Source of the DNA: Streptomyces tsukubensis
GTDB taxonomy: Bacteria > Actinomycetota > Actinomycetes > Streptomycetales > Streptomycetaceae
DNA length: 64,000 nt
Direction: 5' to 3'
Assembly (NCBI RefSeq): GCF_003932715.1
Contig: NZ_CP020700.1
Coordinates: 6,346,501-6,410,500, forward strand
Shown here: positions 32,078 through 62,437 of the stretch, in pieces
Numbering within the stretch: position 1 is the stretch's first letter
How the letters are laid out: each line of letters begins with the position of its first letter
Program-made: the position numbers and the translations under genes
The notes under the pieces: generated by a model
Database searches by the model: none
The model's input: the letters and a program-made list of their open reading frames with translations, nothing else
Told to the model about the DNA's origin: nothing

Positions 32078-32082
32078 TTGGA
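32078..32082. repeat. Target site duplication TTGGA, left copy
   Basis: TTGGA directly abuts the TGT left end of the Tn7-like element; the identical pentamer abuts the ACA right end at 46365-46369. Five-base duplications are the rule for Tn7-family insertions. Confidence 0.82.
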
Positions 32083-32485
32083 TGTAGGCTCTCCCGGCTC
32101 GCGGCATTGGGCGTCCCGTTGACCAGCAGCTCTTCCTCAGTCTCAAGTTGAGGCCACTGACGGCCTGTCTCACGACCGCGTCATTTCCTCGTTCGCTTCG
32201 TTGCGCTGGGCGCAGGTCGACCGGGCCCGCGCTGAGTCTGTGCGTGAGGCAGGTAATCCGTTGCTGACCATGGTTGCGTCGGAGGACTTCGCAGGGGCGC
32301 CGTCTCAGGCCCCCGGCAGGCTGGTGGCGGTACCGGTCTGCCGGGGGAGCGCTGGCGGTCCGGCGAGGCCGACGGTCGCGGACGGGTGGTTGACCGCCCG
32401 GCCGTTCTGTCGTCGCCGGTATGGAGCGCGTCCTTCAGCGACATCCGTCCAGGAGCCTTCCGTCACCGGAGGGTTGCGTCTCGAC
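32083..32485. other. Transposon left end, no gene seen
   Basis: About 400 bp between the left terminus and the stop of the PfpI gene. No convincing reading frame. Contains repeated TCTCA boxes (32141, 32168, 32303) resembling the terminal TTCTCAGAACCGG segment of the right end. Confidence 0.6.
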
Positions 32486-33196
32486 TTACCGTCGCTTCTT
32501 CGACGTGTTGCCCTCGATGGCTTCGACGACCTTCTTCGCTGTGGCCTTGGCCGAGCCCGGGTTCTGGCCGGTGACCAGGTTGCCGTCGGTCACGACGTAG
32601 GAGACGAACGGCAGTGTCGCCTTCTCGTAGAGCGCGCCGCGCTGCTTGGCCTTCTCCTCGGCGTTGTAGGGGACCAGTTTGTCGACGCGGGCGAGGACCT
32701 CCTCGGTCCAGGCGAATCCCGTCATTTTGCGGCCGGCGATGAGGTAGGAGCTGTCTGAGAGCCGGGTGTTGAGCAGGCCGCAGTAGCCGTGGCAGACCGA
32801 GGAGACGATGCCGCCGCGCTCGTAGATCTCGCGGGTGATGCGCTGCAGGCCCTCGCTGTCGGGGAAGTCGTACATCACCGCGTGACCGCCGGTGAAGTAG
32901 ATCGCATCGTACGCGGACGGGTCGATCTGGTCCGGGCTCGCCGTGTTCTCGAGCATGGCCATCTTTCCGGGGTCGGCGTGCCATGCCTTGGCGGTCTTGT
33001 CGTAGTTCGGGAATTTCAGTGCACGCGGTTCGAGCGGCACAGGGCCGCCGGCCGGGCTGACGAGCGTCTGCTCGTAGCCGTGCTCCTCGAAGATGTGCCA
33101 GGCGTGCGTGAGCTCGGAGAGCCACAGGCCGGTGGTGTGGGACGGGTCGTCGTAGTGGCCGACGTTGGTGACGACGTTGAGGACGCGCTTGGTCAT
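32486..33196 (-). CDS. DJ-1/PfpI, class I glutamine amidotransferase-like protein
   Basis: 236 aa. NVGHYDDPSHTTGLWLSELT, AYDAIYFTGGHAVMYDFPD and the nucleophile elbow VSSVCHGYCGLLN (Cys135-His136) match Hsp31/ThiJ-like DJ-1 family proteins, many of which are glyoxalase III or stress chaperones. ATG 33196 is preceded by GGGAAGATC-type sequence. Minus strand, downstream of the aldehyde dehydrogenase, so probably the last gene of the TetR-controlled cargo operon. Confidence 0.85.
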   Translation of the reverse strand: MTKRVLNVVTNVGHYDDPSHTTGLWLSELTHAWHIFEEHGYEQTLVSPAGGPVPLEPRALKFPNYDKTAKAWHADPGKMAMLENTASPDQIDPSAYDAIYFTGGHAVMYDFPDSEGLQRITREIYERGGIVSSVCHGYCGLLNTRLSDSSYLIAGRKMTGFAWTEEVLARVDKLVPYNAEEKAKQRGALYEKATLPFVSYVVTDGNLVTGQNPGSAKATAKKVVEAIEGNTSKKRR

Positions 33197-33265
33197 GGCT
33201 GATCTTCCCTCGTGCGGACCGGGATGGAGTGGAGGCGGGCCGTCGTAGCCGGAGCCAGTGGTCGG

Positions 33266-34857
33266 TCAGCGGACGCCCAGGGCACGCAGCGTCTTGAACG
33301 CCCGGGTCAGGATCCGCGCCCACTGCTCGTGCTCGACTCTGCTGGGCGGGGTGAAACCCTGGAGGCGCTGGTGGGCGACCGTCTGGGCTTCGGTGTACTT
33401 GAGCAGCCCGTCGGCGCCGTGACGGCGGCCGAGGCCCGAGTCGCCCATGCCGGCCATGGGTGCGTCGATGCTTCCCCAGGCGGCGGCGAACGCCTCGTTG
33501 ACATTGACGGTGCCGGCGTGCAGCCGTGCCGCGACCTTGCGGGCCTCGGTGCCGTTGCGACCCCAGACGCTTGCGTTGAGGCCATACGGCGTGGCGTTGG
33601 CCATCGCCACCGCCTCGTCGGCCGACCGGTAGCGGTAGCGGTAGACCGACACCACGGGGCCGAACGTCTCGTGGTCGAACAGCGTCATCTCAGGGGTCAC
33701 ATCGGTCAGGATCGTCGGCTCGTAGAACAGGGGCCCGAGGTCGGGCCGGGCTTTGCCTCCGGCCAGTACGGTCGCGCCCTTCGATACCGCGTCGTCGACG
33801 TGCGAGCTGACGGTCTCGAGCTGCGAGGGGGTGGTCAGCGAGCCCATGTCCACCGAGAAGTCGCAGGCCGCACCCAGGCGCATGGCCCGGGCACGGTCGG
33901 CGAACGCGGTGACGAACGCGTCGTGGATCTCATCGGCGACGTAGAGCCGTTCGATGGACACGCACAGCTGGCCGGCCGAGGGGAAGCAGGCGGCGACCGC
34001 GCCGGTGGCGGCCTTCTCGACGTCGGCGTCGGCGAGGACGACCATGGCGTTCTTGCCGCCGAGCTCCAGGGACGCGCCGATCAGCCGCTCACCCGCGTCG
34101 CGCGCGATCTGGCGCCCGCTGGCGGTGGAACCGGTGAACATCATGTAGTCCCCGCCGGCCATCAGCGCGTCTCCGATGGAGCTGCCACGGCCGACCACCA
34201 TCTGCCAGACGTCGGGTGGCAGGCCGGCCTCGCGCATCAGGGCCAGTGCCCACAGTGCGGTCAGGGCGGTCTGGGTGTCGGGCTTCTGGACGACGGCGTT
34301 GCCGGCCATCAGGGCCGGGATGGCGTCGCCGGCGGCCATGCTGAGCGGGTAGTTCCAGGGCGATATGACGGTGACGACGCCCTTGGGTGGTGCAGCTCGG
34401 TGGTGTGGGTCAGCATCGGGATCGCGCCCTTGCGGCGCTTGGGTGAGAGCAGCCGCCGTGCGCTGCGCGCGTAGTAGCGGGCGGTGATCGCGATGTCGCT
34501 CACCTCGAGGAACGCGTCGCGGCGGGTCTTGCCGCTCTCGGCCTGCATCAGGTCGAGGGCTTCCTCCTGCCGCTGGAGGACGAGGTCGTGGAAGCGCAGC
34601 ATGATGCGCTTGCGGTCGGCCACCGGGGTGGCCGACCAGCCGGCTTGCGCGGCGCGTGCCCGGGCGAAGGCGTCCTGGACGTCGTCGGGGGTGGAGATGG
34701 GCAGGTCCGCGAGCGGTGCGCCGGTGTACGGGGAGGTCGTGGTGACCCGCTGGGCGCGAGTACCGGCGGCCACCAGGGCGGCCAGGCGGGCGAGCCGGGC
34801 CGGCGTCAGCGTTGCCGGGAGGGCGGCCTGGGGGTGGCTGGTGTTCGTGGTGGTCAT
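33266..34857 (-). pseudogene. Succinate-semialdehyde/aldehyde dehydrogenase, frameshifted
   Basis: The N-terminal 160 residues (start ATG 34857; TTTSPYTGAPLADLPISTP, LQAESGKTRR-like segment) and the remainder (KGVVTVISPWNYPLSMAAGD, ELGGKN with catalytic Glu, SAGQLCVSIER with catalytic Cys, ETFGPVVSVYRY) are in different frames. The switch is at about 34391, where a CCC run would need one more C to restore KGVV. The full protein would be about 530 aa, the size of GabD2-type NAD(P)-dependent aldehyde dehydrogenases. Either inactivated or an assembly indel. Confidence 0.85.
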
Positions 34858-34863
34858 CTTGTC

Positions 34864-35789
34864 TCAGCTCCGGTCCTGGAGGGAGGTGGGCACGGGCATG
34901 TGCAGCGCCAGCTGGCCCTCGGTGGTGACGTCGAGCTGGATCGTCCGGATCGGCTTCAGCGAGCGCAGGTCGTCGCTCATCCGGCCCTCGCCGAGCCGCA
35001 GGTCCAGGCCGCGGGGGAACCGCGTGGTTCCCGAGGAGAGCATGTTGATCTGGCTGGTCGTGGAGTGCCAGGCGCCGTCGATCGTGGTGTAGGAGGCAGG
35101 GTCGAGACGTGTGCGCCGGTGGGCCGCGCGGTCTGCTTCGGGGAGGGCGCCGACAGAGCGAGGTCAAGGCCGCCCCGCTCGTTGGCGACCCTGGCGGAGG
35201 TGCGCGCGGTGTCGATGTCGACGTCGAGCCCGGTAACCCACTTGGGGAACCCGTAGCCGTCGTGGCCACGCACCTGCGCGATCTCGGTGTTGACCGGGAG
35301 CGAGAGTACGTAGGAGTGCAGGGAGTCATTCTTGAGCCCGGCGACCAGGTCGAACAGGCCCAGCCCTCCGTGCCGGGCCGGCTTCACGGCGATACCGACC
35401 GCGGCCTCGGTGTAGAAGTCGATGTCGCACACGTCGTACCGGAAGGCCATCACGGAGACGATCCCGAGCCCCGGGGCGATCTCGAGCGGGTCCAGTTCCC
35501 GGGGCAGGCGGGCCCGGATCGCCCTGGTCGGCGCGAGCATGGTGAGCCGGGTCGTGGAGATGCGGTAGTAGAAGTTCGGCGTCAGCGTGGGCCCGATGCG
35601 GGAGTCCACGCGGCTCTTGGGCATCCGGCGGAAGAAGTCGACACTGCTGACCCGCGGGTCCTGCTCCACCTCGTCGAGGTCGGTGTCCATGCGGAACCGG
35701 TCATAGAGGCCGCCTTCGGGGACGGTGATGAGACGCCCTCCGAGAGCGACCTCTACGGTCCGGTCGGTCAGCTTGCCGGTCGATGCCAT
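34864..35789 (-). pseudogene. Acetoacetate decarboxylase-like protein, frameshifted
   Basis: ATG 35789. Residues 1-210 (VDFFRRMPKSRVDSRIGPTL, FYYRISTTRLTMLAPTRAI, GHDGYGFPKWVTGLDVDID) resemble the acetoacetate decarboxylase (ADC) superfamily. Near 35115 the frame shifts: the sensible continuation YTTIDGAWHSTTSQINMLSS, RLGEGRMSDDLRSL, QLALHMPVPTSLQ lies in another frame and stops at 34864. One base is missing or extra. It starts the cargo operon downstream of the TetR gene, next to the operator. Confidence 0.72.
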
Positions 35790-35799
35790 GAGCCCTCTC

Positions 35800-35860
35800 C
35801 TCCGATGTAAGCGGTGTCAACACCGAGGATTGCACGGCATGTGAGCACCGTCAACACTGG
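35800..35860. promoter_or_regulatory. Candidate TetR operators, ADC-operon side
   Basis: GTAAGCGGTGTCAACA at 35808 and GAGCACCGTCAACACT at 35840 share the GTGTTGACRGYG core (either strand) with copies ahead of the tetR gene. Two spaced half-palindromes upstream of the ATG at 35789. Confidence 0.62.
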
Positions 35861-35895
35861 AGAGCGCCAGGCGTGCGCCGGGTGGGCGCCACGCG

Positions 35896-36471
35896 TCAGG
35901 GGCCGACCGACGTGATGGCGAGGAAGGCGCTGCGCACCCGGTCGGCGACCTCCTTGCTCGACCCGGCCTGCAGCTTGCCGTCGAGGTAGAGGCAGGCCAG
36001 CCCGTGGGCGAGTCCCCAGCCGGCCGTGGCCAGAGCCGAGGCGTCCGCGTCAGGGAGGACGCGATCGAGCGCGTCGGCCAGCAGCTCATGCAGGGCGTCC
36101 GCGGCCTTGACCCGCTCGTCGGCGGCGTCGTCGCACGGCTTGCCGAACATCACACGGAACAGGGCCGGGCGCCGCAGCGCGAAGTCGACGTAGGCGACGG
36201 CGAACTCGGCCAGGTCCGGGAGAGCGGCGGGCAGGTCCTGCCCGCCGCCCAGGTCGGCCAGCAGGTTCCGGAAGCCCTCGACGGCGAGCGCAGACTCCAG
36301 GGCGTCGCGGTCCTTGAAATGGCGATACGGCGCAGTCTGCGACACACCGGCCCGGCGTGCGACGGCACGCAGCGAGAAGGGCTCGCCGCTCTCCAGCATC
36401 TCCATCGCGGCCGACAGCAGCGCCGCCCGCAGGTCGCCGTGATGGTAGCCACTCTTTTCCAATGTTGACAC
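35896..36471 (-). CDS. TetR/AcrR family transcriptional regulator
   Basis: 191 aa, ATG 36471. N-terminal HTH: GDLRAALLSAAMEMLESGE, SLRAVARRAGVSQTAPYRHF, KDRDALESALAVEGF. The C-terminal ligand domain has FALRRPALFRVMFGKP and GWGLAHGLACLYLDGKL, similar to TetR_C_33/WHG-type regulators. Flanked on both sides by the GTGTTGACRGYG repeats, so it probably represses itself, the ADC-aldehyde dehydrogenase operon and perhaps the divergent NmrA gene. Confidence 0.9.
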   Translation of the reverse strand: MSTLEKSGYHHGDLRAALLSAAMEMLESGEPFSLRAVARRAGVSQTAPYRHFKDRDALESALAVEGFRNLLADLGGGQDLPAALPDLAEFAVAYVDFALRRPALFRVMFGKPCDDAADERVKAADALHELLADALDRVLPDADASALATAGWGLAHGLACLYLDGKLQAGSSKEVADRVRSAFLAITSVGP

Positions 36472-36525
36472 CGCTTACTTCATCCTCCTACGCTGTGTTA
36501 GCACCGTAAACATAGCTGATGTCCG
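36455..36525. promoter_or_regulatory. Candidate TetR operators between tetR and NmrA gene
   Basis: CAATGTTGACACCGCTTAC at 36460 is the reverse complement of the box at 35808, and GTGTTAGCACCGTAAACA at 36496 is a second, related copy. They overlap the start of tetR and the divergent upstream region of the NmrA-like gene. Confidence 0.62.
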
Positions 36526-36674
36526 GTGGAGCCAGGTGCCCCCGGCTCGGCCAACGACCACGTCGGCTTGGTCCGCATCCCGGCCACGTTGGTCGACCGC
36601 ATCGTCACGTGGCGGTGCGACGCTGCTCGCAGGTGAGCTGCCACCACCCGCACCATCCACCTCAAGGAGACCCC

Positions 36675-37595
36675 ATGCAGACCGTCCTCGGCGCCGGCGG
36701 GCCGATCGCCGACGAGCTCGTGAACGAGCTCCACCGCAACCACACCAAGGACATCCGCCTCGTCAGCCGCAAGCCGTCGAAGGTGAACGACACCGACGAG
36801 CTCATGGCCGCAGACCTCACCGACGCCGACGCCACCAGCCGCGCCGTCGCGGGCAGCGACATCGCCTACCTCACCGTCGGCCTGCCCCTGGACTCGGAGC
36901 TGTGGGAGCGACAGTTCCCCGTCATGATGCGCAACGTCATCGACGCCTGCGCCGAACACGGCACGAAGCTCGTCTTCTTCGACAACACCTACATGTATCC
37001 CGGAACGCCGACGCCCCAGACCGAGTCGACAGCATTCGCGCCGGGCGGGCGCAAGGGACGAGTCCGCGGACAGATCGCCACCATGCTGCTTGAGGCCATG
37101 CGGGCCGGACGGGTCGAAGCCCTGATCGGCCGCGCGCCCGAGTTCTACGGTCCCGGCCGGACGAAGAGCTACACGAACTCGTTGGTGTTCGACCGGATCA
37201 AGGCGGGCAAGCGGCCGTTCGTCCCGGTCGACGCCCAGGCCAAGCGGTCCCTGATCTGGACCCCCGACGCGAGCCGCGCTCTCGCTCTGCTCGGCAACAC
37301 TCCGGATGCCTACGGCCAGACGTGGCACCTGCCCATCGACCCGGACCGGCAGTCCTACGCCCAGCTCATCAAGACCGCCGACGAGGTCACCGGCCGCAAG
37401 ATCGGCTACACGGTCCTGCCGATGCTCGCCTTCGGCCTCGGGCGCCGCTTCGTCAAGCCGCTCGACGAGATGTACGAACTGCTCGTCCGCTACCGCGACG
37501 ACAACATCTTCGACAGCTCGAAATTCGCGGCCCGCTTTCCCGAATTCCAGGTCACGAGCTATCGGGAGGGAGTGGAGCGGATCCTCGCCGACTGA
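36675..37595 (+). CDS. NmrA/NAD(P)-dependent epimerase-like oxidoreductase
   Basis: ATG 36675 behind AAGGAGA. 306 aa with an N-terminal dinucleotide-binding GAGGPIADELVNEL (GxxGxxG-like variant), RLVSRKP, AADLTDADATSRAVAGSD and KLVFFDNTYMYPG, then GRAPEFYGPG and a C-terminal PMLAFGLGRRFVKPLDEM: an atypical short-chain NmrA-like/epimerase protein. Divergent from tetR and probably controlled by it. Confidence 0.82.
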   Translation: MQTVLGAGGPIADELVNELHRNHTKDIRLVSRKPSKVNDTDELMAADLTDADATSRAVAGSDIAYLTVGLPLDSELWERQFPVMMRNVIDACAEHGTKLVFFDNTYMYPGTPTPQTESTAFAPGGRKGRVRGQIATMLLEAMRAGRVEALIGRAPEFYGPGRTKSYTNSLVFDRIKAGKRPFVPVDAQAKRSLIWTPDASRALALLGNTPDAYGQTWHLPIDPDRQSYAQLIKTADEVTGRKIGYTVLPMLAFGLGRRFVKPLDEMYELLVRYRDDNIFDSSKFAARFPEFQVTSYREGVERILAD

Positions 37596-37963
37596 CCCGC
37601 CGACGAGTACTCCCGCCGATCGACGCGTGCCGCGATGCCGAACCGGCGCCGATACTCCGACGGCGTCACGCCCGTGGCGCGCAGGAAGAGCCGACGGAAG
37701 TTCGATGCGCTCAGGTAGCCGAAGCTGCGGGGGATCTGAGCGACCGGCTCGCTGGTCAGCTCCAGCTCGCGAGCCTTGGCAATGCGCGCCACCTGGAGGT
37801 ATTCCGTCGCGGTCAGGCCCGTAGCCTCCTTGAACCGCCGCCGGCCGGTGCGCGGGTGCATGGCCGCGGCCCGCGCGAGGTGGTCGACCCACGCCAGGAT
37901 CCCCGCGGCCATCATGACTTCGACGTCATCGATCACCATGCGTGAGGCGTCCACACGAACCTT
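37559..37963 (-). pseudogene. GlxA-like AraC regulator, C-terminal half
   Basis: Minus strand reading VRVDASRMVIDDVEVMMAAG then, after an apparent internal loss of about 100 residues, HPRTGRRRFKEATGLTATEY, ARELELTSEPVAQI and GYLSASNFRRLFLRATG ending in RRRFG. This is the AraC helix-turn-helix end of GlxA-family regulators. Its N-terminal half lies next to it on the opposite strand (37986-38464). It overlaps the end of the NmrA gene. Confidence 0.78.
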
Positions 37964-37985
37964 CCACCACGGACTTCGAGAGGGC

Positions 37986-38464
37986 ATGCTGAGCCCGACC
38001 GTGACAGGTCCGCACGTCGACGAGACCGGAGCGTGGGTCGTCGGAGAGGTCCGTCTGCTGGAGTACGCCGACTGCCAGGTGTCGGCGATCCACGGCCTGC
38101 GGGACATCTTCCGTGTCGCCAGCGAGTTCGCCGTGACGTCGGCCGACCCTGCGAGCGTGATCCGGGTCAGCACCTGGGCGGTGTCCGCCACCGACGACGG
38201 GCCGGTCATGGTGTGCACCTCGGACACTCATCCTGAGCTCGCGCACCGGCTCAGCCACGTCGTCATCCCGCCGAGCCTCGTCGTACCCGAGCTGATGGTG
38301 TCGGTGGGCGAGTTCACCGATGGGCTCGTCGGCCTCCGGTCCGAGGGCACCAGGCTCTGTGCCGTGTGCGCCGGTGTCTTCGTCCTCGCCGAGACGCAGC
38401 TGCTCGACTGCCGGGACGCCACGACCCACTGGGCGTTCGCCGAGGAGCTGGCGCGCCGATACCC
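37986..38464 (+). pseudogene. GlxA-like AraC regulator, N-terminal half, inverted
   Basis: Plus strand frame with VRLLEYADCQVSAIHGLRD, IFRVASEFA, GTRLCAVCAGVFVLAETQ and WAFAEELARRYP, the DJ-1/PfpI-like sensor domain of GlxA-type regulators, ending where VRVDASRM should follow. Turning this segment round would place ARRYP next to VRVDASRM at 37963 on the minus strand, restoring one gene. So an in-place inversion of about 0.5 kb broke the gene. Confidence 0.75.
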
Positions 38465-38476
38465 AGCACAGCGATG

Positions 38477-38506
38477 GGGCGGCAGACCCTGTCGCGTCTG
38501 CCGCCC
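38477..38506. terminator. Inverted repeat, likely terminator
   Basis: Perfect 11-bp arms GGGCGGCAGAC / GTCTGCCGCCC with an 8-nt loop, just beyond the stop of the hydrolase gene (minus strand), between it and the broken GlxA gene. Confidence 0.7.
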
Positions 38507-38522
38507 ATGTTCCTGGATGCGG

Positions 38523-39497
38523 TCACTCCTGCTGGAGCGCCTCTCGCAGCGCGTCGACGGACAGCTTGCGTGCGACATTGGTGGCCGGGGTGTCCCGCAG
38601 TCCGTCCAGCAGCATGAAGTCGTGGACGGTCCCGCTGATGCGGACGGCCGTCACCTCGACGCCGGCCTCACGGAGCTTGTTGGCGTACAGCTCGCCCCCG
38701 TCCCGCAGGACGTCGGCCTCCGCCGTGATGACGAGGGCGGGCGGCAGCCCCTCAAGGTCCTCAAGGGTCGCCCGCAGCGGCGAGGCGTACTTCTCCTCGC
38801 GCTTGGCTTCGTCGGTCGTGTACGCGTCCCAGAACCACTTCATCCCATCGCGGGTGAGATAGTAGTGCTCCGCGAACTGGTGGTAGGACTGCGTGTCGAA
38901 GTCCGGCCCGGTCACGGGGTAGAGCAGGATCTGCGCCTTGAGCGCGAGCCCGCCGCGGTCCTTGTTCATCTGCGCGAAGACCGCGGACATGCATCCGCCG
39001 ACCGACTCGCCGGCGACGGCGACGCGGGAGGTGTCGAGGCCATGGTCGGCGCCGTTGTCCCGCAGCCACTGACCGACGGCGTAATTCTGCTCGACCTGCG
39101 TGGGGTACCCCTTCTCGGGCGCCCAGTCGTAGACCGGGAAGACGCCGGCGGCCCCGGCTCCGACGGTGAGCTCCCGGAAGAGGCGGTCGTGGGTCTTGTC
39201 GTCGCCGAAGACCCACCCGGCACCGTGGATGTAGAAGACCACGGGCAGCGGGCCCGTGGCGCCCTTGGGCTTGATGATGCGGGTGCGTACGGTGCCCCAC
39301 TGGCCGGCGTCGACGTCGACCCACTCCTCGTCGACGTCCGGGCGCTCGACGCCTTCGCCGCTCTGCAGGTCGCTGAGGATCTTGCGCCCCTCTTCGGGCG
39401 GAACCTCGTAGATCCGCGGGTGCGGGTCGGTGGCGTCGGCGAGCTCCTTGGCCTCAGGTTCCAGGTACGGGGTGGTGGGGGCTGGAAGGTCGGACAT
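38523..39497 (-). CDS. Alpha/beta hydrolase, hormone-sensitive-lipase type
   Basis: ATG 39497. 324 aa with oxyanion-hole motif HGAGWVFG (HGGG variant), nucleophile elbow GESVGG, acid in ADVLRDGG and a C-terminal HDFMLLDGL histidine: the HSL/GDSAG-type esterase family that often has GDSAGG, here GESVGG. The N-terminal cap (YLEPEAKELADATDPHPRI) is typical. Esterase on small acyl substrates; specific substrate unknown. Cargo of the Tn7-like element. Confidence 0.88.
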   Translation of the reverse strand: MSDLPAPTTPYLEPEAKELADATDPHPRIYEVPPEEGRKILSDLQSGEGVERPDVDEEWVDVDAGQWGTVRTRIIKPKGATGPLPVVFYIHGAGWVFGDDKTHDRLFRELTVGAGAAGVFPVYDWAPEKGYPTQVEQNYAVGQWLRDNGADHGLDTSRVAVAGESVGGCMSAVFAQMNKDRGGLALKAQILLYPVTGPDFDTQSYHQFAEHYYLTRDGMKWFWDAYTTDEAKREEKYASPLRATLEDLEGLPPALVITAEADVLRDGGELYANKLREAGVEVTAVRISGTVHDFMLLDGLRDTPATNVARKLSVDALREALQQE

Positions 39498-40054
39498 CGC
39501 TGATCCTTTCCTCGAATGCCGGGTCGCTCGCGTCATGGACGCTACAAACGGATCGCATACAGACCAAGTGCCGCGAACGACTCCCTTCGAGGTGATCGCG
39601 ACACCCACCCTGAGGTGTGATCCGATGAGCGGTACATAGGGCGGGCCGGTAACAGGAGCCCCCGGAATGCGGCCCGACGGGGACTCCATCGTCAGCAAGC
39701 CCCAGTCGCAGCGCGTAGCGGCACGTCCACGGGCGCTGCTTGTGCATGGAATGGGCATGGCGTATTTCCGGTGAGAAGCTCCCCCTGCCAACAGGGTCCG
39801 GCACGTCGATGTTGATCGCATTCGCTGATGCGGGTGGGAGTGGTGTGCCGCATACACACTGAGCGGGACCGGCCGTGCCGATTCTGAGTCCTCTGTGCAC
39901 CATCCTCTGTTCACAGTCGGCGCCGGAATCTTCCTGGTGGGCGGATCGGTACATCGTTCTCAAGGAAGGCGCCACGCACGGTAGCCCGGCTATTCCGGGC
40001 CGGCGTCAGATGGTGGACCATCGCTCCGCTCTGTCAGTGCGACCCCGGTTCTTG
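39498..40054. other. Intergenic region inside transposon
   Basis: About 560 bp between the hydrolase start and the tniQ stop. No convincing gene. Contains GTTCTCAAGGAAGGCGCC at 39956, similar in layout to the right-end GTTCTCAGAACCGGCGCC, and GTTCACAGTCGGCGCC at 39909; these may be extra TnsB-type boxes or a relic of an older end. Confidence 0.55.
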
Positions 40055-42225
40055 TCACTTTCTCCTGGGGCGGCCCGGATAGAACCCGGCGGGGCGGAGT
40101 TGGACGTCGTTCTTCAGCAGGGCCAGGCGCACGGTGGCGAGGGTGGTTCCTTCACGGTCGGCGATGTCCTGGAGCGACAGGTGGTCGTGCTCGTACCAGG
40201 TACGCCATTGCTTGATGCGCCGGGCGGTTTGCTGGGTTCGGCGAAACTGCGGCGGGCTCCAGTCCACCGGGTGCTCGGCAAGCAGGTAGATGACATGCGC
40301 GGTGGTGGTCTTCAGCGTGTGTGCGAGCTGGGCGACGGAGAAGTCGCCGACGGGCGTTGCCCGGTGGAGTTGGGCGGCGGTGATGCGTGCGGGGTCCGGC
40401 CCGGGGAGCACGAGGTGACGCAGTGACCGCGCGGGGAGGCACGGTGCCCACTGGAGGGGTTCGTTGATCTTGTGTTCGTCGAGCAGGGTGCGGGCGGTGT
40501 GGCGGAGCAGTTCGGCTTCGGCGGGCAGGATCCGCCAGCGGAAACGCTGGTACTGCTGGCGTTGAGAGGCGGAGGTGGGGGCGATGTCGGGGTGGGCGAG
40601 GTGGGCGGGGGATCCGGTCAGGACCTGGAAGATCCAGCGTTGGGCGTGCGCGGCGCCGGGGGTGTGGTTCGAGCGCAGCCGGCTCTGCAGGGTCCGCCAG
40701 ACCTGGGGGTCGAGGAAGTGGGCGCGGGGGTGAACAGGGTGCGGCGGCGGTGGTAGTCGATCGGGGCGCCGTGGGTGTCGAGGTGGTCGGCCAGCAGGAT
40801 CAGCGCGTGCAGGACGTCGGTGCAGTCGTCACGCCGGGTGAGGTCGGCCAGGAGAGTGGAAACGTTGTGGCTGCTGACGGTGGTGCCGGTCAGGCGGGTC
40901 GCGGCGGCGATGGAAGTCGCGTTGCCCACCAGGAGGCAGGCCACGGCGAGGAGTTCGTCCGCGCGCCGGGCCACTGGTTTGCCGTCCGGGTGCCGCGGAG
41001 ACAGCCGCAGGGCCCATGCGGGCCACAGGGCGGTGGGCAGCATACGGGCCCGCACGTCCTGGTCGGCCGGTGGGCGGGTGGAGTGGATGGCGGTGCGGTG
41101 GCGCAGTCGGGCGACCGGCATGATCTGTGCTTCCCGGCTGTTGCGCAGGGCTGCTTCCAGTGCCGGGGAAACGGTTCCGCCGAGGCCGACGATGTTGCCG
41201 GGGTGGAGCTGGCGGCGGGTGGCGGCCACCCGGTCAGTTAGCCACTGCACGGCGCTGCCCGCGGCGTGGATGTCCGCGGCCTGCAGGACTCGGATCGCCG
41301 CCGCGACCGCTATGGCAGTCGCTGCGGAATCAGCGGGGGCAAAGTAGCTGTGCCGGTCCACCCGCCGGGTGTCCGGGGTGCGCTGCGACGTGGTGGGCAG
41401 CGGGTCGGTGCGGTAGCGCTCCAGCTGGTCCAGTACGTCGGCCGGGGCCATCGGCTGCAGATCGGTGGACGTTGCATGGTTGAGGACCAGCGCTCCCAGA
41501 CACTTCGCGTCGCGCAGCACCACCCCCAACGGCGCCCCCGCCGGCCCGTACAGCGGCCAGCACACCGCACGGTCCGGGGCCACGAGGAGGGTCTCGATCA
41601 GGCGCTGGGTCTGCGACAGAGGGCCGTCGGGTGCGATCGCGGTGACCGGGGCGGCGGCGAGGCGGTGGTGGCAGCGGCGGGGACGGGGTCCGGTGCCCGG
41701 TGCTGCGCTCGCACACAGCCCCGGGCGGGGAGTCTCACCGCGGGGGTGGGCACGCAGGCGCGGAATGTGCCCGCAGGCGGGGCAGCGGTCGGCGAGCAGA
41801 ACGTGGTGGCGGGTGCAGGCGAAGGACCAGCCCAGGCGCCAGGTCACCTGCCAGCGTCCACCGCTCTCCTCCAGGCAGGCGGGGCAGAAGCGGGAGCCCG
41901 AGCGCCCCCACAGCAGTTGCCGGTGCACCTGGCGCCGTTCGGTGAGGATCACCACCGCGTGCCCGTCGAAGGGCTGCAGCGTCATCTTGGTGAGAACCGT
42001 CTCGGGTACCCCGGTGGCCTGGGCGATGGCGGCCAGCTCCTCCCGGGCGGCCAGGGTGGTCCAGCGCGGCAGGACCGGGGCGGCGAGGGCCGGGTCACGG
42101 TTGGGCAGGCCCAGCGCGCGGAGCACGTCGGTGAAGGGGCAGTGCAGCTTGTGGGCGAGGAATTCCTGCCAGGAGTCCAGCGCCTCGCCTGGATGCGGTG
42201 CGTACCGCAGCGGCAGAGTCCTCAT
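40055..42225 (-). pseudogene. tniQ: TniQ/TnsD-like target-selection protein, frameshifted
   Basis: ATG 42225 overlaps the tnsC stop (ATGA). Residues 1-500 contain the TniQ hallmarks: LPLRYAPHPGEALDSWQEFL, FCPACLEESGGRW and CTRHHVLLADRCPACG zinc pairs. Near 40731, in the run following TLFTP, the frame changes: the sensible continuation RAHFLDPQVWRTLQSRLRSN, RWIFQVLTGSPAHLAHPDI, then the 118-aa end (VGDFSVAQLAHTLKTTTAHV, DIADREGTTLATVRLALL) lies one frame over. One base appears missing. Whole protein about 720 aa, larger than Tn7 TnsD. It would choose the insertion site. Confidence 0.8.
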
Positions 42226-43337
42226 CGGGAGCCCCGGGTCCGGCGTGGCCGGCTGGTGGCCTTGCCCGCGTGCAGCGCATAAGTGAGTTCCCGGCGGGCC
42301 TGTTCGGCGGCAGTGTCGTTCTTGACCTGGTCGAGGAGGTCCTGGGTGAGGCGTTCGGTGCCGGTGCGCTGGGCGCGCTGGCAGCCGCGGTTGATCAGTG
42401 TCATCAGCGAGCCGATGTGTCCGGTGCTGCGGGCGAAGAGGTAGTCCGACAGGTTGTCGGCGAGCATGCCGGGGTGGGTGTCGGCCAGGACGATGCGCTG
42501 CTCCAGGGCGAGGAGGAGCTGCCGCCAGTGGCGGCGGCCTGGCTCGGTGTCGATGGTGAAGGGCGGCATGTCCAGGCGGGTGGTGCGCCGCCCGGTCTGG
42601 GCCAGAGCTGTCTCGCCGACGGTTTCGCCCTCGCTGAACAGGCCCTTGTCGGCCAGGCCCACGCCGACCTTGAGGAGGGTGACGGGGAACTCGTTGGCGA
42701 TCCATTTGAGGTGGTTGCTGACCTCGATGCCGCTGGTGTTGCGCCACTTCAGGAAGTGCAGGTCGTCCAGGACGAGCAGTCTGACCTCGCAGGACAGGAC
42801 ACAGTCCAGGGCCTGCAGGCCGAGCTGGGCGGCTGTGGAAGTGACTCTTCCTGGGTGGCCGAAGAACTCCAGCATGGCCCGGTTGAGGTCCTTCATCCCC
42901 GTGTTGCCGGTCAGCCCCACCCGGCACACCGGCCACCGCTCGTGCCCCAGGGCGGTGAACTCGCCCAGCTCGGCGATTTCCCGGCGGTGGAACTCGCGGG
43001 CGAACGCCAAGACGGCGGTCGTCTTGCCCAGGCCCGGGAACGCGTCCACGGCCACGGCTCCCTTGGCCTTGTCGCCGTCCTGCACGTTGCTGTCGAGGAT
43101 GTCCCACAAGTCCTCGTGCAGTGCTGCCAGTTGTGGGGTACGGATCGGCCCCAGGTTGGCATGCCATCCCCGGCGCTGCCGGTTGTAGGCGTCTCGCTCG
43201 TCGACGGTCAGGGCGGCCAGCTCGGACCGGTTCAACGCCTGCGGCTGGTCACGTCGGGGCGTGTCGACGAACGCTTTGAAGTCCTCTTTGCGTGACAGCG
43301 CCAGATTCCCCGGGTCCAGCCGGGGCGGGATGCTCAC
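42222..43337 (-). CDS. tnsC: TnsC/TniB-like transposition AAA+ ATPase
   Basis: GTG 43337 overlaps the tnsB stop (GTGA). 371 aa: Walker A in DAFPGLGKTT (residues 98-107), Walker B RLLVLDDLHFL (about 186-196), sensor region VTLLKVGVGLADKG and C-terminal helices. TnsC bridges the target selector TniQ and the TnsAB transposase in Tn7-like systems. Order tnsA-tnsB-tnsC-tniQ with four-base overlaps supports one translationally coupled operon. Confidence 0.88.
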   Translation of the reverse strand: MSIPPRLDPGNLALSRKEDFKAFVDTPRRDQPQALNRSELAALTVDERDAYNRQRRGWHANLGPIRTPQLAALHEDLWDILDSNVQDGDKAKGAVAVDAFPGLGKTTAVLAFAREFHRREIAELGEFTALGHERWPVCRVGLTGNTGMKDLNRAMLEFFGHPGRVTSTAAQLGLQALDCVLSCEVRLLVLDDLHFLKWRNTSGIEVSNHLKWIANEFPVTLLKVGVGLADKGLFSEGETVGETALAQTGRRTTRLDMPPFTIDTEPGRRHWRQLLLALEQRIVLADTHPGMLADNLSDYLFARSTGHIGSLMTLINRGCQRAQRTGTERLTQDLLDQVKNDTAAEQARRELTYALHAGKATSRPRRTRGSR

Positions 43338-45460
43338 ACGTCCTCCAGCGCGTCCGCGTAGAAGCCGCCGTCGCCGTCCAGGTCGTCCGCCGCGTCATCG
43401 TCCCCGCCCTCAACGGCTTCCTCCCGCAGTACGGGTGCTGCCACCGATTCGCTGCCGTGTCCCAGGGCGCGGCGTACGGACGGCAGCGCAGCAGGTGCGA
43501 GCTCCTCGGTGGCCGGCAGGTCGATGCCTGCCTGTTCGCGGGACAGGCGCAGGGCCATGCGCCGTTCGGCGAGCGTGGTGCCCAGCCCCAGGTTCCACCG
43601 ATCCAGCAGGCCCGCGACTGCGAGCCGGTCATCGGGGTAGCGGTGCTTGGCCGCGGCCAGCTTCCGGGCGAAAGCCAGCGCGTCCTCGCTCAACGGCATC
43701 CGGGCAGCCGGTGCGTGTTCCCAGACAAGGGTGTGCCAGGCGCGGGTATCAGGGTGGCGGAAGAAGATTCGGGTGATGTCGTCCGGGTCGACCTGGAACG
43801 GCCAGCTGTTCTTTCCCGGCCCGTCGTACGGGCTGCGGATACCCGGGGCGGGGAGACCTGGCCCGCGGTAGCGGCGCCGGTCGATTTCGACGCCGTAGTG
43901 CTGGACCGTGCGCCACTTCGTCGCCAGGAACTCAAAAGCGAGGCAGGGGTCCCGCGGCACTTCGATGTATCCGGCGCGCGCCATACCGTGCTCGAACATC
44001 TGGGCTGGCGACATCCGCAGGCCCGGCACCCCCGGATCGACCAGACCAGCATGCGGGCGGCAGTGGTACACCACCGCGACCCACTCCCTAATGATCGCCT
44101 CCAGCTCGTCGAGGAAGAAGAACGCATCGCCTTCCGGGTTCTCACCGCGCGAGTGGATGTCCGGCCCCTTGTAGCCGGGCAGCGCCTCCAGCAGGCCCTC
44201 GCGCAGGGAGCGGAAGAACCGCTCCACCGGCCCTTTGTCCCGGCCCGTGCGCAGCCGGGCCGGCTGCAGGGAGATGCCCATCCGGCGGCACACGCTGGTC
44301 AGATGCTCCGAGACGTACACCTTGCCGTGATCGACCACCAGGGTCTCGGGCACCACCGGCGGCGAGGCCAGCCCCGCACCCGTCGCGCCCTCGACATCGA
44401 CCAGGACCGCACGCGGGATGCCATGCTCGGGCCAGAGCGCACCCCGCGGCCAGTCCCGCCCCGCAGGCCGCGGCCGGAAGCACTGGAACAGCACCGCGCT
44501 CACATCCACCGCCTTCGTAGACACCGGCGTCACCCGAAGACCGGTGATGCAGCGGGTGTACCAGTCCATCGCCACCGTCAGCTCGGCCTGTACCCACCGC
44601 AGCGTGAGCGGGTCGAACGCGAACACGTCCAGCCGGGTGGTGTCCATCAGCATGTACTCGCCCGGCCGCGTCGGCCGCAGCTTCCCGTACGGGCCCTCGG
44701 GCCGGTCGGCGATGTCCCGATTCCGCTTCGCCGCCAGCCGGAACAGCGGATGGCGGCGCTCCAGCTCAGAAAGAATCCGGTAGGCCGTCGCCTGGCTCGG
44801 GAGACGAACACAATCGGCGCCGTGGCGGGCAATCACGCGAGCGCGGGTGCGCTCGATCACGATCTTCCGTGTGGGTGTCGACTCGCCCAGGTGCTCGGCC
44901 ATCACTTCCAAGGCCGCTTCCACCCATCGTTCATCGGCCTTGGCGGTTGGCCCCCGGGACTGCTTCTTCTTCGCTGCCAGCCCGGCTTCGCCGTGCCGCC
45001 GGAAGTCAGCCACCCACTGCTTGACGGTGCGGACGTGGATCCCCAGTTCCTTCGCCTTGGCCGTGTACTTGGGTTCCACCGGCCCGCCAGGCACGTAGTC
45101 GCGGCGAGGTTCCCCATTGCCTGCCAGCTCAGGGCTCCCTGAGCGGAAGCCCGTCAGCAGCTCCCGTACATGTCCGGCCCGTTCCAGGACCTGACTTCGT
45201 TCGCTCGCCTGCAGCTGGTCCAGAACCACCGAGGCAATCTCTTGGTCATCGTCCGCCGACGGGCCGGGCTGATCGGCGATGAGGGCCGCCCGGTCGGAGA
45301 ACAGGAGTTCTTTCAACGACAAGCGCAGAAGCCGCCCCCGCTCGTCCTTGAGGACCACCTCGTTACCGGCTGCCGTCGCGGCCATCTCCACCACCTCGAC
45401 GCTCTCACTGTCGTAGCGGAATCGTGTTCCGACCCCCACCCGGGCCCCGGCCCCGCTCAC
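43334..45460 (-). CDS. tnsB: TnsB-like DDE transposase
   Basis: GTG 45460 overlaps the tnsA stop. 708 aa: N-terminal helix-turn-helix (ELGIHVRTVKQWVADFRRHG), then an rve/DDE integrase core with D273 (YMLMDTTRLDVF), D377 (TLVVDHGKVY) and E413 (GRDKGPVERFF), and a mu-C-like C-terminus. This is the catalytic subunit that joins 3' ends to target. The length is that of TnsB (702 aa in Tn7). Confidence 0.92.
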   Translation of the reverse strand: MSGAGARVGVGTRFRYDSESVEVVEMAATAAGNEVVLKDERGRLLRLSLKELLFSDRAALIADQPGPSADDDQEIASVVLDQLQASERSQVLERAGHVRELLTGFRSGSPELAGNGEPRRDYVPGGPVEPKYTAKAKELGIHVRTVKQWVADFRRHGEAGLAAKKKQSRGPTAKADERWVEAALEVMAEHLGESTPTRKIVIERTRARVIARHGADCVRLPSQATAYRILSELERRHPLFRLAAKRNRDIADRPEGPYGKLRPTRPGEYMLMDTTRLDVFAFDPLTLRWVQAELTVAMDWYTRCITGLRVTPVSTKAVDVSAVLFQCFRPRPAGRDWPRGALWPEHGIPRAVLVDVEGATGAGLASPPVVPETLVVDHGKVYVSEHLTSVCRRMGISLQPARLRTGRDKGPVERFFRSLREGLLEALPGYKGPDIHSRGENPEGDAFFFLDELEAIIREWVAVVYHCRPHAGLVDPGVPGLRMSPAQMFEHGMARAGYIEVPRDPCLAFEFLATKWRTVQHYGVEIDRRRYRGPGLPAPGIRSPYDGPGKNSWPFQVDPDDITRIFFRHPDTRAWHTLVWEHAPAARMPLSEDALAFARKLAAAKHRYPDDRLAVAGLLDRWNLGLGTTLAERRMALRLSREQAGIDLPATEELAPAALPSVRRALGHGSESVAAPVLREEAVEGGDDDAADDLDGDGGFYADALEDV

Positions 45461-46176
45461 GCTGTCCGCCGCAACAGCCGCGAGGGGGCCAGCGGCTCGC
45501 CGAGGTCTACCCGCAGCTCATGCGTCCACAACAGGTGGTGGACTGCAGCGCGGACACAGGGCCCCGGCCAGCGGGGAAGTTGCTGCACCGCAGCATCCAA
45601 CGGCACTCCGTCGAGGTCGGCCAGGCGCAGTTCGTCGAGTACCTCAGGACGGAAGAGCCAGTCGCGGCGGAAGCCAGCCAGGAAGCGGATGTTTTCCAGT
45701 TCCGCTTCCGGCGGTTCGCTCCAGATCTCGTACCGCCAGCCCCGGGCCTCCACCGCCCGCCGGGTCCAGTCGAAGGTGATCGCCACCTCTGGCCTGGTCA
45801 GCTGCCGGTGCGGCTTGACGTCCACCACCACCGGCCCCTGGCCGGTGATCAGCAGATAGTCCGGGATATGGCTTCGGACCGTGGCCCCCGCCATGGTCTT
45901 CATCAGGAACGGCTGGGCCACAATGCCGTGCACGAGCGGGTCGAAGTCGGCGTAGAGGAGTTTCGTCAGCTCCAGCCGTGACTCGTAGATCACCTGCTCA
46001 CGCATGGTCGCTGCCCAGTAGCTTCCGGAATAGTGCCTCTGTCCTCGGTGCCACCGGAACGTCCGCCACGGAGTCGCCGACCTCAGCAGGTCGACGGACA
46101 CTGTTGTCCACGACAGGTCCTCCACGAGCTTGCCGTGGGGAAAGCGAACGCTGACTTCTACGGCGGGATCGTCCAC
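45457..46176 (-). CDS. tnsA: TnsA-like endonuclease
   Basis: About 239 aa. Core residues: E in YESRLELTKLLY (65-72), D106 in HIPDYLLI, and VVVDVKP with D119 and K121, i.e. the PD-(D/E)XK-like active site of TnsA, which cuts the 5' ends so the element moves by cut-and-paste. GTG 46176 is chosen; a longer start at 46257 exists without a better ribosome site. Its start is about 190 bp from the right terminus, as in Tn7. Confidence 0.8.
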   Translation of the reverse strand: MDDPAVEVSVRFPHGKLVEDLSWTTVSVDLLRSATPWRTFRWHRGQRHYSGSYWAATMREQVIYESRLELTKLLYADFDPLVHGIVAQPFLMKTMAGATVRSHIPDYLLITGQGPVVVDVKPHRQLTRPEVAITFDWTRRAVEARGWRYEIWSEPPEAELENIRFLAGFRRDWLFRPEVLDELRLADLDGVPLDAAVQQLPRWPGPCVRAAVHHLLWTHELRVDLGEPLAPSRLLRRTA

Positions 46177-46364
46177 GACGCACCCCCAGCTCGGGCAGTA
46201 CCTGCAAACCCCACGATCCCAGCCGCAACGAAGCGGGCAGGCCGAACTGACCTGCATCGCCCGAAAGAGTGAGTCCTCTGAACAGCGATTCTCAGCAAGT
46301 CACCACATGTGGCCTCGCTGTGCTGTCGGCGCGGAGAATATGGCGCCGGTTCTGAGAACCCACA

Positions 46365-46369
46365 TTGGA
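46365..46369. repeat. Target site duplication TTGGA, right copy
   Basis: Immediately outside the ACA right terminus; identical to 32078-32082. Confidence 0.82.
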
Positions 46370-46490
46370 TGTCAACGGACAGTTCGCCCGGGGCAGACAG
46401 GAAAGATCCCGCAAGGACTGGAAGAACCGCCAGGGGCATGTCAACGTAGACGACTTCCCCGGAAACCCGCAGTTCAGAGAAGGGTTTGCC

Positions 46491-46844
46491 GTGACCGTCG
46501 ATATCGCCCCGCCCGCATTCTCCACGACTGTCGAGGCCCTGCGGCTGCGTTCCTGGCAGCTCGGCCCGGGCCAGCCGGCCGCGGTGCTCGACCAGTTCTC
46601 CGACACCGACTTCAAACTGGTCGTCGACGACCGCGCCGACGTCCACATCAACAGCAGGGATGGCCGTTTCCACCTGGGCTGGTTCCCGGGAGGCCGTCCC
46701 GGGACCGACGGCGAGGGCTGGAAACTTGCCGTCACCGGGACAGCCGAGGTTCCCGGCTACCAGGTGTCCTTCGACACCGAGACCCCGGCGCAGATCGTGG
46801 CCGCCGCCGTAGCGGCCGTCCTCACTACCTCTCAGCCGCGCTGA
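46491..46844 (+). CDS. DUF317-like protein (117 aa)
   Basis: GTG 46491 with GAAGGG 6 nt upstream. TTVEALRLRSWQLGPGQPAA, then GRFHLGWFPGGRPG, GWKLAVTGTAEVPGYQVSFD and ETPAQIVAAAVAAVL: one DUF317 unit (W, LGxxPxG, WxVxF, TPAxIV). The frame is open upstream to 46365 (right at the transposon target duplication) with a TTG there, so the original 5' end could have been changed by the insertion. Confidence 0.74.
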   Translation: MTVDIAPPAFSTTVEALRLRSWQLGPGQPAAVLDQFSDTDFKLVVDDRADVHINSRDGRFHLGWFPGGRPGTDGEGWKLAVTGTAEVPGYQVSFDTETPAQIVAAAVAAVLTTSQPR

Positions 46845-56753: not shown

Positions 56754-56861
56754 CAGACGACACCCCCGACGGGGGTCGTTACGGGGCGGGCTGCCGCACC
56801 GGCCGGGAACCCCGGCCTTCCGTGCAGGGCAGGAGGCATGTAAGACTCTCCTCTGAGGTAT

Positions 56862-56902
56862 TGCCGCACCAGGTGTCCTCTGGGAATGGGGCTGGTGCGG
56901 CA
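56862..56902. repeat. Inverted repeat upstream of initiator gene
   Basis: Perfect 11-bp arms TGCCGCACCAG / CTGGTGCGGCA separated by 19 bp, about 110 bp upstream of the ATG at 56753. Possible operator for the replication operon. Confidence 0.6.
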
Positions 56903-56953
56903 CTGGGCGAATCGGGCCCTTGCCGGGGCACGAGACGCGATTTCAAGTCGGTC

Positions 56954-56984
56954 GGCGTCTGAGAGGTTCGAACTCTCAGGCGCC
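56954..56984. repeat. Hairpin with TTCGA loop
   Basis: 12-bp arms GGCGTCTGAGAG / CTCTCAGGCGCC (one wobble) around GTTCGAA. It looks like a tRNA T-arm but no tRNA fits either strand. Operator, terminator or attachment-site remnant are possible. Confidence 0.5.
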
Positions 56985-57474
56985 GCCGTCGTTCTGGTCA
57001 CTTTTCTGCGGTGCCGCGTTCGCTGCCGGGCGGCCTCTTCATTTCAGGGTTCGTGGCGGGCTGGTTCCCAAGCAGGATCTGCTCGGTTCAGCAACACACC
57101 ACAGACCCTGCCCGGAAGTCCATACATAGCTCTTGACCGCCGTACAGCTCTGAAACGCAGCTACTCCCACGGCCCTCTGCGGTACGGGTCCGCTGTCCGG
57201 TGCCCCGTCGGCCGACTGGACATGCAGCCGCTGCCCTCGGGACGTCACCGAGTCCAGCAAGGGCGTTTTCCAGTCAGGAAGTCGGGGGTGAGGGATGGGT
57301 TCTGTGGTTGCACAGTGCGATCTTGCACCCGCATCCCGTGCGCGTCAACAGTCGAATGATTGCATCAACCATCGGTGGCGTGATCTAGTGTTCCTGCTGG
57401 TCACAGGCTATGTGGCCGTCAACAGCCGTTGATATGGCCGCCATGGCCGCCCTTCGACACTGCTGGGAGCATCC
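56985..57474. other. Intergenic region, no gene seen
   Basis: About 490 bp between the element replication genes and the XRE operon. No convincing reading frame. Near the right side GCCGCCATGGCCGCC and a TGCACAGTGCG-like segment could be regulatory. This marks the probable right limit of the conjugative backbone. Confidence 0.5.
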
Positions 57475-61349: not shown

Positions 61350-62433
61350 ATGTATTGACCACGAGTGTTGTTAACGGTTCCGGGTCTTGATCATGGCGAA
61401 GACCTCCGGTGTGGTGGAGGTGTCTAGGCTCCACACCGCACACGGAGGTCTTCGTGTCCCACCGTAATGCCCGGCTGACCGTTCACGGCAGGCGGATCCT
61501 GGTCGAGCGTGTTCTCGCGGGCCGTCCGGTCGCGCATGTGGCGGCCGAGATGGGCATCTCCCGGCCGACCGCGCACAAGTGGGTCCGCCGGTGGCGGGCC
61601 GAGGGCGACGCGGGTCTTCTCGACCGCTCCAGCCGCCCGCGCACGACTCCGCACCGCACCCCGGCCGTGACGGAAGACGAAGTGTGCCGGCTGCGGACCG
61701 AACGCAAGCTCGGCCCAGCCCGCATCGGGCCGATCCTGGGCCTGCCCGCCTCGACCGTGCACCGGATCCTGGTCCGCCACGGTCTCAACCGGCTCGCCTG
61801 GCTCGACCGCCCCACCGGCGAACCGGTAAGACGCTACGAACGCGCCCGCCCGGGCGAACTGGTCCACGTCGACATCAAGAAACTGGGCAACATCCCCGAC
61901 GGCGGCGGCTGGCGAACCGTGGGCAGAGCCGCCGGCGAAGCACACCGCCAGGCAACCACCGATGCCCGCAAAAGCAGCAAACCGGTGATCGGCTACTCGT
62001 TCGTCCACTCCGCCGTCGACGACCACTCCCGCCTGGCCTACAGCGAGGTCCTGCCCGACGAACGCCAGCACACCGCCGCAGGCTTCTGGCAACGCGCGAA
62101 CGCGTTCTTCACCGCCCACGGCATCACCGTCCAGCGGGTCCTCACCGACAACGGCTCCTGCTACAAAGCCCGGCTGTTCACCCGGACCCTGGCCGCCACC
62201 GGCATCACCCACAAGAAGATCCGGCCCTACCGGCCACAGACCAACGGCAAGGTCGAACGCTTCAACCGCACCCTCCTGGACGAATGGGCCTACCAGCGGC
62301 CCTACCACTCGAACGACGAGCGGACCCGGGCCCTGGCAGACTTCCTCCACACCTACAACCACCACCGCAGCCACACCGCCCTCGGCGGACACCCACCCAT
62401 CAGCCGCGTTAACAACCCTGCGGGTCAATACAC
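61350..62433 (+). mobile_element. IS481-family insertion sequence (1,084 bp)
   Basis: Ends RTGTATTGACC on both sides in inverted orientation, continuing with TGTTAACG in both; flanked by CTAG. Encodes one transposase. The right CTAG supplies the TAG stop of the transposase, and in the other strand the stop of the gene ending at 62434. Confidence 0.88.
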
Positions 62434-62437
62434 CTAG
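61454..62437 (+). CDS. IS481-family transposase
   Basis: GTG 61454 is chosen (the longer frame begins in the IS end). 327 aa: N-terminal HTH (RPVAHVAAEMGISRPTAHKW), second HTH/linker (LGPARIGPILGLPASTVHRI), then the DDE core: VHVDIKKLG, VLTDNGSCYKA and the E in NGKVERFNRTL (DDE triad). C-terminal HHRSHTALGGHPP is typical. Stop codon lies in the target duplication. Confidence 0.92.
   Translation: MSHRNARLTVHGRRILVERVLAGRPVAHVAAEMGISRPTAHKWVRRWRAEGDAGLLDRSSRPRTTPHRTPAVTEDEVCRLRTERKLGPARIGPILGLPASTVHRILVRHGLNRLAWLDRPTGEPVRRYERARPGELVHVDIKKLGNIPDGGGWRTVGRAAGEAHRQATTDARKSSKPVIGYSFVHSAVDDHSRLAYSEVLPDERQHTAAGFWQRANAFFTAHGITVQRVLTDNGSCYKARLFTRTLAATGITHKKIRPYRPQTNGKVERFNRTLLDEWAYQRPYHSNDERTRALADFLHTYNHHRSHTALGGHPPISRVNNPAGQYT
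62434..62437. repeat. IS481 target duplication CTAG, right copy
   Basis: Second copy of CTAG; see 61346-61349. Confidence 0.8.

Follow-up and report, generated by a model that had tools for sequence, protein, structure and literature searches.

The leaders of DUF317 genes in Streptomyces are entered repeatedly and precisely by Tn7-like elements, the pattern expected of an attachment site. One such element, 14,282 bp in length, extends from position 32083 to position 46364 of a 64,000-nt stretch of Streptomyces tsukubensis DNA, referred to here as the window. Its machinery is of a known kind; the attachment sites used by it and its relatives, the DUF317 leader and dnaB, were not found in the open-licence literature. 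The comparisons presented here are probably best explained by TniQ-directed, site-specific, cut-and-paste transposition of the Tn7 type, with attachment sites in the DUF317 leader and at dnaB. On balance, they also lean toward a broader picture, in which the many copies of the DUF317 leader in Streptomyces would serve in common as docking sites for two or more Tn7-like lineages, whose TniQs are unrelated, and for trans-moved, tns-less elements of 1.1–1.7 kb, and in which a swap of tniQ would have shifted TnsABC backbones from dnaB to the DUF317 leader and other sites.

Boundaries, genes, and setting of the element

The left terminal end, TGTAGGCTCTC (32083..32093, plus strand), resembles motifs at the left ends of relatives, and the right terminal end, TGTGGGTTCTC (46354..46364, minus strand), can be aligned with the same end in relatives, where it is followed by differing target DNA. 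A copy of the target-site duplication TTGGA adjoins each end (32078..32082 and 46365..46369), as the sequence and an alignment of the joined flanks indicate, and the combination of TGT...ACA ends with a 5-bp duplication is that of a Tn7-like element. A preliminary description of this DNA had proposed these ends, the duplication, a size of 14.3 kb, and a tnsA-tnsB-tnsC-tniQ operon at the right end; sequence and profile matches place all of them where it had put them. It had also called for a search for identical ends elsewhere. Without mismatch, the end motif occurs solely at the two claimed places; with one mismatch allowed, two matches were found against about three expected by chance. Because that expectation is not exceeded, the motif alone is weak proof. 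The reality of the element rests on the alignment of the right end in relatives and on 16 other distinct elements that have a candidate left end with 5 bp equal to their own right flank, the candidates coming from a motif search that demanded this identity. A repeat search of the terminal 200 bp found no direct repeats; short TGAGA/TCTC blocks can be seen by eye.

Inward from the right end, the operon runs on the minus strand in the order tnsA, tnsB, tnsC, and tniQ. A TnsA-like endonuclease of 266 residues (tnsA, 45457..46257; NF033179, 240 bits, cutoff 110) is followed by a DDE transposase of 708 residues (tnsB, 43334..45460), identified as TnsB by PADLOC and matched above cutoff by HTH_28; its scores for rve, 23.3 against a cutoff of 32.6, and for Mu-transpos_C, 20.7 against 21.7, remain below threshold. 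The third gene encodes an AAA+ ATPase of 371 residues (tnsC, 42222..43337; TniB PF05621 36.3 bits and AAA_22 37.7 bits, both above cutoff). In alignments, Asp-273, Asp-377, and Glu-413 of TnsB are conserved over 33 rows and Glu-92, Glu-96, Asp-133, Asp-146, and Lys-148 of TnsA over 30 rows; from the known Tn7 proteins, we take these to be the catalytic residues. Elements of this kind had been called little described in Streptomyces, a view that sits poorly with their spread: of 392 genomes from the genus, 208 contain TnsB homologues (E ≤ 0.001), although the weakest homologues may be other DDE transposases.

TnsA, TnsB, TnsC, and TniQ/TnsD genes are thus present together, although the tniQ frame is broken in the window copy. 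Where the preliminary description had given a TniQ of about 720 residues, the actual frame has 536 codons (40618..42225, minus strand; PF06527, 73.6 bits, cutoff 27), and comparison with relatives places the C-terminal part in another frame of the same strand, with approximate limits 40060..40720. About the first 499 residues match the intact proteins of relatives, which have lengths of 720 (L033), 722 (L037), and 723 residues (L034 and L061), and identity is lost thereafter. The break may be a real frameshift or an assembly error. With its tniQ frameshifted, the window copy may no longer pick targets unaided. The earlier proposal that targeting is by TniQ alone is thereby retained in part: TniQ is the most likely selector, but with its C-terminal third broken, a protein of 720 residues would have served this copy only in the past. 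The tniQ genes of L064 and L066 look frameshifted too.

The cargo consists of metabolic genes. It comprises a DJ-1/PfpI family protein (32486..33196, minus strand; PF01965), a succinic semialdehyde dehydrogenase-like (SSADH-like) protein (33266..35329, minus; NF006916, 625 bits, with residues 310–686 matching) whose start seems by eye to lie in another frame (34309–34857), an acetoacetate decarboxylase-like protein (34977..35789, minus; PF06314, 35.6 bits) whose tail, again by eye, is probably out of frame, a TetR regulator (35896..36471, minus; PF00440 and PF13305), an NAD-dependent epimerase (36519..37595, plus; PF01370), an AraC-type HTH protein (37559..38227, minus; PF12833), and an alpha/beta hydrolase (38523..39914, minus; PF07859, 212.2 bits). 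The SSADH-like and acetoacetate decarboxylase-like genes (33266–35789) seem frameshifted, as does tniQ, through decay of the cargo or assembly indels. Between 37559 and 39503, an AraC/FtrA-like signal spreads over both strands (HTH on the minus, FtrA-like on the plus strand), perhaps marking a rearranged or broken gene. PADLOC gave no match among the six cargo ORFs scanned. A search of the element for direct repeats at least 20 bp long and no more than 120 bp apart found none, and no cas family was found among the subset of ORFs scanned, in agreement with the earlier statement that a CRISPR array and Cas genes are absent.

The window covers 6.35–6.41 Mb of contig C1 in a genome of 8.0 Mb and three contigs, which holds one match for the window TnsB; this copy is located on a chromosome-sized contig. 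For the conjugative backbone that had been proposed as the setting, the evidence consists of matches in flanking ORFs: a relaxase domain (35 bits against a cutoff of 24.6) and NlpC/P60 exceed their cutoffs, and TrbL and EccE fall narrowly short of theirs. Many flanking ORFs have no Pfam match at E ≤ 0.001, and some are probably not genes. Elsewhere in the window, positions 56855–56988 match the Rfam family Scr6925 (57.8 bits, gathering score 50), and an IS481-type transposase at 61409–62437 has similar copies on Streptomyces plasmids.

The DUF317 leader as an insertion site

Directly to the right of the element lies a DUF317 (SPDY) reading frame (46365..46844, plus strand; PF03771, 56.6 bits). 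The insertion accordingly occupies a DUF317 leader and not attTn7 at glmS, just as the preliminary description had it. DUF317 leaders, about 100 bp long, share the core AGTTCGCCnGnGGCAGACAGG and further conserved blocks downstream; in the window, this core, the presumed attachment site, occupies 46381..46401 on the plus strand, 16 bp from the right end. When the flanks are joined, their alignments with the uninterrupted leaders L155 and L142 cross the junction and score 183 and 190, respectively, against a control of at most 81.5 in 100 letter shuffles of L155. The linear plasmid of Streptomyces sp. NBC_00299 (L002), which shares 91% identity with the left flank along 586 bp, is uninterrupted through GGGTTCGATGTCAACGGACA and diverges from the window further to the right. 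Uninterrupted counterparts of the joined flanks, as had been predicted, thus exist in L155, L142, and L002, but the exact 17-mer proposed as the empty site is absent from the 32 loci searched, being present with one difference in L002 and L155.

A sample of 392 Streptomyces genomes, 238 of which match the DUF317 region at E ≤ 0.001, in many cases over a short length, was searched for the leader core followed within 4–34 bp by a TGTRGG end. One place was found in each of 20 genomes, and a reversed-pattern control gave none. Although gaps of 4–34 bp were allowed, the distance from core to end is 15–18 bp in all 20 occupied sites, two of which (in G149 and G358) have identical sequence at the junction. 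Insertion is thus site-specific, with the right end nearest to a conserved target and at a set spacing from it. The wide occurrence of DUF317 regions and the repeated, precise use of their leader show that the site is not merely an accidental location on some mobile element.

Two further properties of the leader were noted. Upstream of the empty leaders L003, L142, L144, L155, and L165 and in the left flank of the window, repeats like TTCGnTGnCAAA, about 20 bp apart by eye, stand just before the leader core and are perhaps operator sites. An RNA structure in the leader was considered and set aside, the consensus being weak at about −7.6 kcal/mol over 43 sequences, among which the window is entered twice and one hit is spurious.

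Only three of the 20 occupied sites, those of the window, G248 (L033), and G168 (L037), carry tnsABC-tniQ genes of the close family. At the other 17 (L190–L206), tblastn with the four window proteins found none of them (E ≤ 1e-4, over about 11.7–16.1 kb inward), and the proteins of a second lineage, L207, matched nothing beyond short pieces of TnsA in L205. For five of the 17, both ends could be located together with a 5-bp duplication free of mismatches, namely L190 (1671 bp), L193 (1061 bp), L203 (1251 bp), L206 (1240 bp), and L205 (5165 bp); no matching left end was found for the remaining 12. The four elements of 1.1–1.7 kb (L190, L193, L203, and L206) contain little beyond one cargo gene each. 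L203 and L206 are 96% identical, and both carry an Abi_C protein (PF14355, 86.4 bits for that of L203). We infer that the tns-less elements at the leader must have moved in trans.

The second Tn7-like lineage that uses this leader, L207, has a TnsB 33% identical to that of the window, a TniB match of 63.7 bits, and a TniQ of 276 residues (PF06527, 41.9 bits). By eye, the right ends of 12 of the 17 tns-less sites look like that of L207. In Streptomyces caniscabiei (G248:C60, around 1905), the right end of L207 lies 2 bp from the L033 element within one DUF317 leader; L062, from the same species, carries the same element as G248:C60. L205 too appears, judged by its ends, to be a stacked insertion.

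Other targets of the family and the exchange of tniQ

Among 83 deduplicated element rows (a TnsB match was obtained in 96 of 107 input loci), 27 have dnaB as target, three a DUF317 leader, and two ku, with 51 lacking an assigned target. The 3′ end of dnaB is the commonest site of the family. It was recognized beside the right end by tblastn with the DnaB protein of L034, whose target gene is itself identified as dnaB by DnaB_C (361.8 bits), and the distance from the projected last sense codon to the right end is 11–15 bp in 26 rows and 7 bp in one. In the genome sample, 59 of the 392 genomes have a dnaB-type 3′ end adjoining a TGTRGG end, with none in the control; a few of these hits, at other spacings, may be due to chance. 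Among the 51 unassigned rows, 13 or more combine a clear right end with 40 bp or more of flank and sit beside other DNA, which means that the family uses additional sites or targets more loosely; the rest show no clear end or too little flank. One row at another site, L039, by eye adjoins an OmpA-like gene. The two insertions at ku (Ku, PF02735), L061 and L066, both lie 35 bp before the start codon, with differing flanking 5-mers. As a general site, ku was discarded: it was found in one of 392 genomes, at another spacing, and stays at these two cases. Inspection of the dnaB, DUF317, and ku sites by eye for a common DNA motif gave only weak matches (CTGG near +50), and none is claimed.

How these targets are distributed over the selector proteins points to mobility of tniQ itself. 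The TniQ clade of the window, termed class A here and delimited by values of at least 66% in tblastn (the next highest is 51%), occurs in six of the 83 rows: the window, L033, and L037 at DUF317, L061 and L066 at ku, and L034 at dnaB. The 77 rows with other TniQs, including L054, which has no tniQ in view, comprise 26 dnaB insertions and 51 without an assigned target, with neither DUF317 nor ku represented. The association of targets other than dnaB with one TniQ clade is thus drawn from a small sample of six rows. In the TniQ tree, these six form one clade (100/100). In the TnsB tree, the window groups with L061 and L066 (100/100), L033 joins them (99/98), and the next branch is L084 (86/90), a dnaB element with a different TniQ, whereas L034 and L037 are paired elsewhere (100/99); both of the groups that bear class A TniQs nest inside a set with dnaB-type elements. 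Because the two trees disagree, they suggest that tniQ has been exchanged between TnsABC backbones.

The location of L034 at dnaB counts against a simple rule of one TniQ for one site. The C-terminal thirds of the TniQs of L033, L037, L061, and L034 are 68–75% identical, which rules out a swap of the C-terminal domain as the cause of the change in target and leaves no clear sequence change that explains the differing targets. A remnant of a class A tniQ, in four matching pieces over residues 193–723, is found in L139 (linear plasmid of NBC_01001, 15001–16592). In the mycobacterial loci L090, L096, L108, L113, L114, L120, and L135, a second tniQ homologue lies within a few kb of the first; these are possible two-selector Tn7-like elements.

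Mode of transposition and relation to known systems

In the TniQ-directed process considered probable here, TnsA and TnsB would excise the element at its TGTRGG ends, as their family and conserved residues suggest, and TnsC would bridge TnsA/TnsB to TniQ, as in Tn7. TniQ would read a conserved target sequence, for the window copy that of the DUF317 leader, through a predicted protein contact; the right end would join about 16 bp from this sequence and leave a 5-bp duplication, in keeping with the geometry seen at the junctions. The tniQ clade of the window appears to have been swapped among dnaB-type TnsABC backbones and is now mostly at the DUF317 leader and ku. Unless its frameshift is an assembly error, the window copy would need the TniQ of another element. 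The mini-elements would be mobilized in trans, by analogy with Tn7. Several points count against this reading, including the location of L034 at dnaB, the lack of a shared motif by eye, the 13 or more rows at other sites, and the 17 of 20 occupied DUF317 sites at which tblastn detected no tniQ nearby.

The last of these points bears on a different division of labor, in which the insertion was made in trans by the TniQ of another element and the resident tniQ is not the selector. The tns-less elements at the DUF317 site must have been moved in this way, L190 sits at that site with ends that by eye are like those of the dnaB-type L055, and the window tniQ is broken; this account is nonetheless unlikely, since three of the six class A elements have an in-family tniQ at the DUF317 site. 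A more radical proposal dispenses with sequence reading by TniQ and supposes that a host property of the leader, such as a bound protein, a feature of replication or transcription, or DNA structure, draws TnsC. It would accommodate the use of one leader by two lineages with very different TniQs (about 720 residues in class A and 276 in L207, with TnsBs 33% identical), the occupation of three sites by closely related class A TniQs, and the conservation of the leader in several blocks, for which the predicted consensus RNA structure is weak. We regard it as quite unlikely, because the spacing is fixed at 15–18 bp, as for a sequence-bound selector, and none of the 26 target-assigned rows with another TniQ sits at the DUF317 leader.

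Common descent could in principle mimic repeated use of the site if the window, L033, and L037 represented one old insertion inherited with its flanking DUF317 gene, and the flanking DUF317 DNA can indeed be aligned at 70–76%. Yet the offsets and flanking 5-mers differ, the TnsB tree pairs L037 with L034, away from the window, L207 is inserted at the same place beside L033, and the tns-less elements at the leader have duplications of their own, all of which make a single hit very improbable.

Among known systems, CRISPR-associated transposons (CAST) have a core of TnsB, TnsC, and TniQ in common with the window element, which differs from them in having no CRISPR-like repeats and no cas genes among the ORFs scanned. 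Elements of the Tn5053/Tn402 type (TniABQR) have no TnsA and include a resolvase, whereas TnsA is present in the window element. The closest likeness is to Tn7, which, from its familiar features and the available part of PMC2918618, shares with the window element the genes for TnsA, TnsB, TnsC, and TniQ/TnsD, a 5-bp target-site duplication, the location of the tns genes at the right end, and an orientation in which this end is nearest the recognized gene at a fixed distance. The differences are that no TnsE was found among the ORFs scanned in the window element, that the targets of the family are the dnaB 3′ end, the DUF317 leader, and ku in place of glmS, and that the DUF317 leader is a 5′ leader belonging to genes that form a multi-copy family. 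In the available part of their description (Faure et al. 2023, PMC10293859), Tn6022/TnsF elements are similar in that selector modules are swapped on a TnsABC core; here, no TnsF-type selector was seen, and TniQ itself has apparently been exchanged.

The sites given for Tn7-like elements in the available parts of PMC10293859 and PMC11406308 are glmS, tRNA, parE, guaC, yciA, ffs, rsmJ, and comM, and the text of PMC10293859 gives no matches for dnaB. In the open-licence literature, in which dnaB and DUF317 were searched specifically, neither these two nor ku were found to be reported as sites of Tn7-like elements. An Actinobacteria-dominated Tn7-like clade without an experimentally characterized member was described by Benler et al. 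2021 (PMC8649781), which in its available part names no dnaB, DUF317, or ku site; judged from its host, the window element probably belongs there. The same text mentions plasmid Tn7-like elements without an identifiable TnsE, for which unknown selectors are one possible reason.

Actinobacterial Tn7-like elements thereby acquire two precise attachment sites, the dnaB 3′ end and the DUF317 leader, and a group called uncharacterized in 2021 (PMC8649781, available part) gains defined sites. The family also provides a natural experiment on target choice, the selector having seemingly been exchanged on a little-changed transposase, along with natural mini-Tn7-like elements at the DUF317 leader. These sites could guide the design of site-specific integration tools for Streptomyces, and they could show how Tn7-like elements spread past a single chromosomal site.
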